DNA of 64,000 bases from Prochlorococcus sp. AG-321-E21 (GTDB taxonomy: Bacteria > Cyanobacteriota > Cyanobacteriia > PCC-6307 > Cyanobiaceae). Below, piece by piece: positions 2,134 through 57,230 of this stretch (the first letter of the stretch is position 1; each line of letters starts with the position of its first letter). Below the pieces are notes generated by a model. It did not search any database, was not told the origin of the DNA, and was given only the letters and a program-made list of their open reading frames with translations. Both the position numbers and the translations under genes were made by a program. Location of the stretch: assembly GCA_003283415.1 (NCBI GenBank), contig QBXH01000001.1:106215-170214 (forward strand). The letters run 5' to 3'.

Positions 2134-3192
2134 ATGCAAACCTATGGTAATCCAGACACCACCTATGGATGGTGGGCTGGTAATTCAGGTGTAGCTAATC
2201 GCTCAGGAAAATTTATCGCTGCTCATGTCGCTCATGCAGGGTTAATTGTTTTTTGGGCCGGTGCTTTCACTCTTTTCGAACTATCAAGATTTGACCCCAG
2301 TGTCCCAATGGGTCAACAACCTCTTATTGCACTTCCACACTTGGCTACCCTTGGAATAGGGTTTGATGCTGATGGAGTTCTAATGGGAGATACCAAACCT
2401 GTACTAGCAATAGCTATTGTTCATTTGGTTTCCTCTATGGTACTTGCAGCTGGTGGATTACTTCACTCGCTACTTCTTCCAGGAAATCTTGAAGAATCAG
2501 AAGTCGCAAAGGCAAGGAAATTCAATATTGAATGGGATAATCCAGATAAATTAACTTTCATTCTTGGACATCATTTAATTATTCTTGGTTTCGCTGTAAT
2601 TCTTCTTGTTGAATGGGCAAGAGTTCATGGAGTCTACGATCCCGCTATTGGTGCCGTGAGACAAGTTGAGTATGATCTAAACCTTGCTGAGATTTGGAAT
2701 CATCAAACAGATTTTCTACTAATAGATGATTTAGAAGATGTTATGGGAGGTCATGCTTTCCTTGCATTTGTCTTGATTACAGGTGGTGCTTGGCACATTG
2801 CTACAAAGCAAGTTGGTGAATATACCAAATTTAAAGGTAAAGGTCTTCTATCTGCGGAAGCAGTTCTTTCATGGTCTTTAGCAGGTATTGGTTGGATGGC
2901 AATTATTGCTGCCTTCTGGAGCGCATCAAATACAACAGTTTATCCTGTAGAGTTTTTTGGTGAACCACTTGAATTGAAATTCAGTATTTCTCCATATTGG
3001 ATTGATACTGTTGACCTTCCTGATGGTGTTTATACATCAAGGGCATGGTTAGCAAATGTACATTACTACTTTGGTTTCTTCTTTATTCAAGGTCATCTAT
3101 GGCACGCACTAAGAGCCTTAGGATTTGACTTTAAGAGAGTTACAAATGCTATCAGTAACATTGATAGTGCTACTGTTACTCTTAAAGATTAA
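2134..3192 (+). CDS. pcbA: Prochlorophyte chlorophyll a/b-binding light-harvesting protein Pcb (CP43/IsiA family)
   Basis: [74 protein letters not shown]; conserved His in TM helices; 352 aa. Confidence 0.95.
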
Positions 3193-5696: not shown

Positions 5697-6239
5697 ATGG
5701 CGGGATATGTTTACCTCATAAGAGTAGGAGATCTTTATCGTATTGGTAAGGCAGATAATCTTGATAAGAAAATCAGAAAACTCAAGCCAGATGAATTGCT
5801 AACTTCCATCATGACTAAAGAACCTGAAACACTTGAAGCCAGGTTATTGAGAAAATATAAATCTCAAAGAATTCCTGAAACGGGATATTTGAAGCTCACT
5901 AAAAGACAAATAATTGAATGTAAAAAACAATTTGACTTAAAAGGAAATTTACCGCATACACTTGATGCTGAGGTTTCCATAACTTTATTTGCATCCTTTT
6001 TATTATTTGGAACAAATTTTTTAATTCTTAATTACTTTAATGTTGGATTTTTAAGAAATATTTCCTATTCATTCGGTTTTGCCTCTATACCTATGATAAT
6101 TTTGTTTCTAACAGGTAGTTTTGGAGGATATTTTTCTGATGATTTAGCTCTATTTTCGTTATTAACAAATCGAATAAAAGGTTTATTGATAGCTATTGCG
6201 ATGATAACAATGGCTTTTTTAGTGTTCAAACTAAATTAA
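5697..6239 (+). CDS. GIY-YIG-like (T5orf172/MUG113-type) N-terminal domain fused to C-terminal TM helices
   Basis: YVYLIRVGDLYRIGKADNLDKKI...PETLEARLLRKYKSQRIPETGYLKLTKRQI then three hydrophobic segments. Confidence 0.65.
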   Translation: MAGYVYLIRVGDLYRIGKADNLDKKIRKLKPDELLTSIMTKEPETLEARLLRKYKSQRIPETGYLKLTKRQIIECKKQFDLKGNLPHTLDAEVSITLFASFLLFGTNFLILNYFNVGFLRNISYSFGFASIPMIILFLTGSFGGYFSDDLALFSLLTNRIKGLLIAIAMITMAFLVFKLN

Positions 6240-25535: not shown

Positions 25536-25952
25536 TTAAGCAAATGAAAGTTCTTTTTTGATTTTCCTATGCTTGTAAAGTGATCGCCCCACGGGCCAAC
25601 CTAAAGTAAATAAATGTCTAATAAGAACATTTGAGTATCTAAAATTTAATTTACTAGAAAAATTGATATCTAATTCATTTAAGGTTTTTATTAATAAATT
25701 AAGGTCTTGCTTTTTACCCCTCTTCTTGTCTAATAAAATCGAATTTGAATTAAAAACTTTATTTTGCAACATCTTTTCGCTTTCAGCAAAGCCTACTTCA
25801 ATTGTATTAAAATCAACAGAATATAGAGTATAAACTATTCCAACTTTAGATTTTTGATGAACTAAATTTAAAGATGATGAAATTAATTTACGATATTCTT
25901 TAATTATTTTTTTTAAAACCATTTTATTTTTGTTCGTTTTGAGAAATTTCAT
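25536..25952 (-). CDS. Hypothetical protein, possibly degenerate GIY-YIG-like, partner of upstream RHH gene
   Basis: VGIVYTLYSVDFNTIEVGFAESEKML resembles VYxLYS..xKVGFxxxxxxR; overlaps upstream gene by 29 nt. Confidence 0.5.
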   Translation of the reverse strand: MKFLKTNKNKMVLKKIIKEYRKLISSSLNLVHQKSKVGIVYTLYSVDFNTIEVGFAESEKMLQNKVFNSNSILLDKKRGKKQDLNLLIKTLNELDINFSSKLNFRYSNVLIRHLFTLGWPVGRSLYKHRKIKKELSFA

Positions 25953-26421
25953 ATTTTTCTAACAAATTATTCACTTCTGCCAAAGCAATTCTTTTCTGAC
26001 AAGCCGAATCATATCGATTTATTGCTATTGATGGTATTGAACCTTTGCTCTTCATTTCTCGTAGACCAGTTTCTAAACACTGAAATGCAACACTTGATAG
26101 ATCTCGCCCTTCTGCAGCTGCCCAAACCTTTAAAAGATAATTGAGATTTGATGGGACAGAAATTTGAACTTTGTTTGAGTTAGAGGTATTTAAAGCAATA
26201 TCATCTAAACTTATTTCTTTTGAGGAAATAGTTTCTTTTACTTTCTTCTTTAAACTTTTAACTTGACCTAAGGCATCTTCATTATTTTTAAATTTTCTTT
26301 CTATCTCAAATAAATCTTCCTCAGTGTTAATTAAAGCTTCTAGCGCCCACTTTGCGTCATCTTCCGCAATAGTTGTACTCTTTAGCCATTCATCTCTAAT
26401 ATAAGACCAATTCTTGGGCAT
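25924..26421 (-). CDS. Ribbon-helix-helix (CopG/Arc-like) domain protein (ATG at 26421; ORF track starts at TTG 26445)
   Basis: KVQISVPSNLNYLLKVWAAAEGRDLSSVAFQCLETGLREM beta-helix-helix pattern. Confidence 0.65.
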   Translation of the reverse strand: MPKNWSYIRDEWLKSTTIAEDDAKWALEALINTEEDLFEIERKFKNNEDALGQVKSLKKKVKETISSKEISLDDIALNTSNSNKVQISVPSNLNYLLKVWAAAEGRDLSSVAFQCLETGLREMKSKGSIPSIAINRYDSACQKRIALAEVNNLLEKYEISQNEQK

Positions 26422-26451
26422 AATCTTTAAGCTATATCTTGACAATACTTT

Positions 26452-26500
26452 AATCTATATAGATTGTCTATAGATTCTAAAATGATTATAAATAGATTGT
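26452..26500. promoter_or_regulatory. Phased operator-like repeats upstream of RHH gene
   Basis: Perfect palindrome AATCTATATAGATT (26452-26465); ATAGATTGT at 26459, ATAGATTC at 26470, ATAGATTGT at 26492 (11- and 22-bp spacing). Confidence 0.6.
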
Positions 26501-32202: not shown

Positions 32203-32340
32203 TTAATTTGTATAAGATTTACCTCTATATGTAAGTTCAGTATGCTGTTTCTTAACAGCTGCTTTGTTTTGGACATATTTTTGTCCTCTGTAGATTAGAG
32301 TCATCTGTTTTCTCCGGTTTCGCCCAAGTCCCCGTTCCAT
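32203..32340 (-). CDS. DUF4278-like microprotein, 45 aa with Arg-rich N-terminus (or 33 aa from internal ATG at 32304)
   Basis: MERGLGRNRRKQMTLIYRGQKYVQNKAAVKKQHTELTYRGKSYTN*; twin YRG motifs. Confidence 0.7.
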   Translation of the reverse strand: MERGLGRNRRKQMTLIYRGQKYVQNKAAVKKQHTELTYRGKSYTN

Positions 32341-32612
32341 GGCTTGAGTCGATTTGCGGCTTGCATTATTACAAGTTGAACGTTTTGGTAGCCTTTGCTA
32401 CATATTTATATTAACACATGAGAAATTTTTTTGTATGGGGTTTTCTAAAAGTTTTTATAGTCATTAATTATCTATTTTGAGGTTTCTTTCTTATAAAATT
32501 TTTTGGAAATAGCTTAAAGTTTTATGCAGGTTACGTTTTGTTCAAGTTATCTATTTATTGTTAATAATTTTACTTTTTAAATGTAAAATTCAAATGATTA
32601 TAACGTTGTTTT

Positions 32613-57014: not shown

Positions 57015-57036
57015 AGAAATAAGTTAATATTTGAAT

Positions 57037-57230
57037 ACTGGATCTTTGGTCAAGTTCTTCTTTATGTGCTCTGATCTGACTCTTTTTCGACTTGAGGAGA
57101 CTGACGTGATGTGGACGTAAACCAATCCTGTAATTGGAAACGAAAGCCCACTTTGACTCCTCTTCTGGCTTTTCCAGGTCGATGCAACAGAGGGCTGGCG
57201 GGGATTCGGTGTACCTCTAAGAACAGTTAT
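57037..57230 (+). ncRNA. ssaA: Probable 6S RNA (ssaA / Yfr7-type) 3' of purK
   Basis: GC-richer non-coding block; terminal stem GTTCTT (57054-57059)/AAGAAC (57219-57224) and GTGC (57066)/GTAC (57211); purK neighbourhood; TAATAT -10-like at ~57025. Confidence 0.55.

Follow-up and report, generated by a model that had tools for sequence, protein, structure and literature searches.

Two adjacent minus-strand ORFs of a Prochlorococcus genome, preceded by short repeats, raise the question of whether they form a toxin–antitoxin pair or a self-regulated operon. The original prediction offered both possibilities, with a ribbon-helix-helix (RHH) protein encoded first (gene 1) and a GIY-YIG-like partner encoded second (gene 2). 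The window analysed here is the whole stretch of 64,000 nucleotides, and the host genome is Prochlorococcus-like (1.31 Mb, 48 contigs, 73% complete). We consider it likely that the two genes form an operon of marine picocyanobacteria that is inherited vertically and represses its own expression. In the literature searched, such an RHH/GIY-YIG-like operon is undescribed.

Table 1. Features of the two-gene locus, in positions of the window unless residues are given
Feature	Position	Strand	Basis or remark
Gene 1, RHH protein, 165 aa (MPKNWSYIRDEWL...)	25927..26421	-	Orthologues, profile-profile comparison, dN/dS
Gene 1 stop codon	25924-25926	-	
Gene 2, predicted GIY-YIG/T5orf172-like partner, 128 aa	25539..25922	-	AlphaFold, viral-structure matches, profile score, dN/dS
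Gene 2 stop codon	25536-25538	-	
11-bp unit 1, CAATCTATTTA	26489..26499	-	
11-bp unit 2, TAATCATTTTA	26478..26488	-	Degenerate in the window
11-bp unit 3, GAATCTATAGA	26467..26477	-	
11-bp unit 4, CAATCTATATA	26456..26466	-	
Palindrome, AATCTATATAGATT	26452-26465		Begins with the core of unit 4
Putative -35 element, TAGACA	26465..26470	-	Overlaps units 3 and 4
Putative -10 element, TATTGT	26442..26447	-	17 bp from TAGACA
Gene 1 predicted helical N-terminal extension	~residues 1-75		
Gene 1 predicted ribbon	K84-V-Q-I-S-V-P90		
Gene 1 predicted helix A	residues 91-104		
Gene 1 predicted helix B	residues 108-125		

The two genes and their products

Both of the predicted ORFs are real genes. The 29-nt overlap proposed between them is wrong, being a mechanical result of starting the frame at its first ATG. 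Alignment of the orthologues sets the starts at MPKNW.. (ATG 26421) and MVLKK.. (ATG 25922). With these shared starts, the genes abut without overlap, and the junction reads TAA-A-ATG, leaving a 1-nt gap. In relatives, the spacing is mostly +1, +2 or -4 nt.

The pair is present in high-light and low-light Prochlorococcus and in marine Synechococcus. It is single-copy, occurs in most of the high-light genomes and is restricted to the family; the named orthologues come mostly from Prochlorococcus single-cell genomes. Three outcomes had been set beforehand as refuting the prediction, namely no predicted RHH fold, repeats unconserved in the promoters of orthologues, and routine separation of the genes in relatives, and none of them was observed. 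The two genes are adjacent in 80/80 high-light loci, and they are also adjacent in the examined low-light and Synechococcus loci despite other neighbours. The flanking genes vary, a pentapeptide-repeat gene giving way to a HIT-like gene (naming by eye). At two Synechococcus loci (L101 and L107), automated frame calling picked a longer alternative frame, and the partner is visible there. Gene 1 was not found in the Synechococcus genomes G404, G409 and G419, where the array pattern occurs at background counts only. The profile of gene 2 gave 0 matches in ~255 sampled genomes outside the family. No relatives of gene 1 were found in viral contigs, and a phage origin was rejected on this ground. 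The inheritance of the pair looks vertical.

The RHH segment claimed for gene 1 was compared as a family profile with 27 cyanobacterial RHH_1 domains by hhalign, resulting in a probability of 93% and an E value of 3.7e-7. The alignment spans the ribbon and both helices. The profile score is 33-34 (34.4 for the whole protein), and 200 column-shuffled profiles scored at most 14.9. According to these profile comparisons, gene 1 is an RHH protein. Single-sequence searches of Pfam and PHROGs gave RHH matches for gene 1, all of them sub-threshold. The predicted secondary structure (E85-88, H91-104, H108-125) has the expected order, and the AlphaFold model is of low confidence (pLDDT 49). In the Prochlorococcus proteins, ~75 residues that include conserved tryptophans form a helical extension at the N terminus, whereas the Synechococcus RHH proteins (~80 aa) begin at the ribbon and lack this extension. 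Gene 1 is near-invariant; it is 98% identical to the MED4 orthologue, with a dN/dS of ~0.02 against MED4 and of 0.02-0.06 over four comparisons. A locus-tag search in papers gave nothing on the gene itself. A distant RHH-like family, for example LLKLWAQFTGRTVSGLAGHLLE, is present in G416 and G181 (L347 and L348).

Gene 2 evolves faster, with a dN/dS of ~0.24-0.30. Its AlphaFold model (42 sequences, pLDDT 76) has a strand-strand-helix-strand-helix core. In a Foldseek search against viral predicted structures, most of the top matches that have an informative name belong to GIY-YIG, T5orf172, MUG113 or BRO proteins (probability ~1.00, E 6.5e-4 to 1e-2). Foldseek against solved structures (PDB) gave no significant match. 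Against 31 cyanobacterial T5orf172/MUG113 domains, the gene 2 profile scores 20-23, and 150 shuffled profiles score at most 15.9. Because this comparison is poor by absolute standards (alignment probability 4-12%), we rely mainly on the fold search. Gene 2 has no match above the Pfam curated threshold, and Pfam, NCBIfam, PADLOC, PHROGs, and the PDB sequence and fold searches returned nothing useful for it. A chance resemblance is unlikely given the score over the shuffles and the viral-fold matches. The GIY-YIG-like character claimed for the partner thus gains support, and its fold is predicted to be GIY-YIG/T5orf172-like. Gene 2 shares the predicted fold and strand motifs with the T5orf172/MUG113 members of the GIY-YIG superfamily; it differs from them in having no Pfam match, no conserved catalytic Arg, and its own family-specific motifs, T-L-x-E and LGWPxG. 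In the weak profile alignment, the catalytic Arg column of the gene 2 family varies (Q, E, K or others), and Leu stands in the catalytic Glu column in the gene 2 of the window; acidic residues directly next to the Glu column are common in the family. The variable Arg column and the Leu at the Glu column together make the nuclease activity of gene 2 doubtful.

In the low-light loci L216-L220, the partner has lost LGWP along with further core residues, and the RHH protein is still conserved. G357 also encodes a 208-aa GIY-YIG-like protein that is related to the partner but unlinked (L213, 1240-1866, plus strand). Elsewhere in the window, at ~5736-5930 (plus strand), a 193-aa frame carries a further T5orf172/MUG113 GIY-YIG domain, which scores above the Pfam cut-off.

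The relative carrying L003 is taken here to be MED4, and the position published for the Yfr13 ncRNA of that strain (PMC2518516) agrees with the local gene order. In MED4, this ncRNA is encoded upstream of gene 1 (L003, 2620-2720, minus strand). Yfr13 has no convincing match in the window, and no Rfam RNA was found at the locus. Elsewhere in the window, Rfam matches a 6S RNA (57032-57216, plus strand), a glutamine-II riboswitch (32323-32385, minus strand) and an IsrR antisense RNA (2533-2704, minus strand).

The 11-bp array and the putative promoter

Upstream of gene 1, three scattered ATAGATT(G/C) repeats and a perfect 14-bp palindrome had been pointed out. The 11-bp phasing of the repeats is correct, but there are four units, which run contiguously on the minus strand from 26499 down to 26456 with no gap. 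The 11-bp period in the window has a z of 3.1 (0/300 shuffles). The palindrome is present as described; it starts at the end of TAGACA and lies mostly within the 17-bp spacer. Such 14-bp perfect palindromes are ordinary in this AT-rich window (14 observed against ~10 expected), and the palindrome was rejected as the key feature. The signal above chance is the 11-bp period together with its conservation. TAGACA, the 17-bp spacer and TATTGT form a plausible promoter, as read from the sequence.

The array is kept in the orthologous promoters. The 11-bp period reaches a z of 19 in high-light Prochlorococcus and 18 in Synechococcus. TAGACA-17 bp-TAnnnT is kept in all of the 75 distinct high-light promoters, defined as those less than 95% alike, and TAnnnT is found at the matching spacing in 10/11 low-light promoters. 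TAGACA is nearly invariant across both groups, and the low-light clades have the same design of array and promoter. Within the unit, position 2 is A and position 4 is T in 99%. In the high-light promoters, the mean pairwise identity is 73% for the array columns, 32% for the 60 columns upstream, and 76% for the leader down to the ATG. Thus, the conserved block takes in the leader. The period and its conservation across relatives bear out the claim of an operator-like, helically phased array at the promoter.

In marine Synechococcus, a longer array is located at the same place, with a different unit (AGNNRCY core) and the same 11-bp period. It has 5-9 consecutive units in 21/22 promoters, compared with 1-3 in shuffles, and the three strongest autocorrelation lags are 11, 22 and 33 bp. 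The middle residue of the ribbon tracks the unit sequence. The ribbon is KxQxS in Prochlorococcus, with AATCTAT units, and KxTxS in Synechococcus, with AGNNRCY units; a further lineage (G114) has the Q residue with AATCTAT-like units. This correspondence is a correlation over three lineages at most.

Genome-wide sites were searched by sequence patterns. A pattern of four Synechococcus units was run against 36 genomes. Among the matches listed, those with 0-1 mismatch are all at the RHH promoter where gene coordinates are given, and those with 2 mismatches are scattered, at the level of the reversed control. The RHH promoter also accounts for all matches with at most 2 mismatches in 17 Prochlorococcus genomes. 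No other three- or four-unit array above background was found in these 36 and 17 genomes. At the three- to four-unit level, the array thus appears essentially unique per genome, and a wider regulon through single or double sites elsewhere is possible. The failure to find another array like it suggests that the RHH protein serves largely its own operon.

Proposed autorepression and the alternatives

The self-regulated module, one of the two readings first put forward, is favoured here. We infer binding and cooperative autorepression from the sequence, its conservation and known RHH biology. TrcR of Anabaena, an RHH protein that represses its own gene from a site overlapping the promoter, is a cyanobacterial precedent (PMC10272220). 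RHH dimers would bind side by side on the tandem 11-bp repeats, with about one DNA turn per unit. As the repeats cover the -35 element and the spacer between -35 and -10, repression would probably be cooperative and would turn both genes off, the partner being presumably co-transcribed with gene 1. The partner has probably lost its nuclease activity. Judging from its predicted fold, it may most likely bind nucleic acid or the RHH protein, and thereby tune the repression.

In the toxin–antitoxin reading, gene 1 would be the RHH antitoxin and autorepressor, and gene 2 a toxin derived from a GIY-YIG protein. Type II modules of the ParD/CopG type likewise consist of two genes, with the RHH gene first and operator-like repeats at the promoter. 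The adjacent, co-directional pair is found here, and its gene order, its abutting genes, the RHH protein with an operator-like array dedicated to one operon, and the predicted nuclease fold of the partner all fit. However, the patchy, mobile distribution that is usual, if not obligatory, for such modules was not found: the pair is single-copy and family-restricted, and shows no sign of mobility or of patchiness within the high-light genus. PADLOC gave no match, and the search of viral contigs yielded nothing related to gene 1. Evolution is slow to the point of near-invariance in the putative antitoxin and fast in the putative toxin, which is the reverse of the expectation. The catalytic Arg of gene 2 is not conserved, and some low-light partners diverge while the RHH protein stays conserved. 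Surveys, covering known families only, reported no toxin–antitoxin pairs in Prochlorococcus (PMC5498466, PMC2518516) and in MIT9303 (PMC2701414). The toxin–antitoxin label is thus disfavoured, and we regard it as unlikely.

A regulator with wider scope is somewhat easier to accept, though still improbable. Gene 1 would also act at weaker sites, the array would be its strongest, autoregulatory site, and gene 2 would be a cofactor. The conserved N-terminal extension of the Prochlorococcus proteins, a possible sensor missing from the Synechococcus proteins, is consistent with such a role. TrcR (All0854) of Anabaena PCC 7120 is an autorepressing RHH protein with a conserved site overlapping its own promoter and with several targets (PMC10272220), and the likeness of gene 1 to this cyanobacterial autorepressor is known at the level of the RHH fold. 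TrcR is reported to be absent from Prochlorococcus, it has a single 18-bp motif as its site rather than 11-bp units, and no GIY-YIG-like partner is mentioned in the part consulted (PMC10272220). Against a wider regulator, no other three- or four-unit array rises above background. A ParR/parC-like nucleoprotein site for chromosome handling, with autoregulation as a side effect, is very improbable. ParR proteins are RHH proteins, and the ParR of the plasmid R1 ParMRC system requires two or more 11-bp repeats, with parC located as tandem repeats at the promoter of its own autoregulated operon (PMC9426499 and references there). The 5-9 units of Synechococcus, present essentially once per chromosome, also resemble such a site. 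ParMRC is, however, a plasmid partition system with an actin-like ATPase partner, ParM. Here, a ParM-like partner is absent, the partner being a 128-aa protein with a predicted GIY-YIG-like fold; the Prochlorococcus array is short and always tied to the RHH promoter, and some Synechococcus genomes have neither the gene nor the array.

Implications for picocyanobacterial regulation

Prochlorococcus has very few regulators, and this highly conserved RHH protein seems unstudied in the literature searched. A further, tentative proposal is that the RHH repressor, together with a GIY-YIG protein that has lost catalysis, makes up a dedicated control module in the core genome of marine picocyanobacteria, in which the operator and the DNA-contacting ribbon have co-evolved. 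The partner would then act as an anti-repressor or as an effector of growth control. The role of an apparently decayed GIY-YIG protein beside a repressor is a directly testable question. The operator-like array is defined at the level of bases, is near-unique per genome, and differs in sequence between sister lineages while its 11-bp period is kept; the locus may therefore offer a clean natural case for the co-evolution of an RHH protein and its site.
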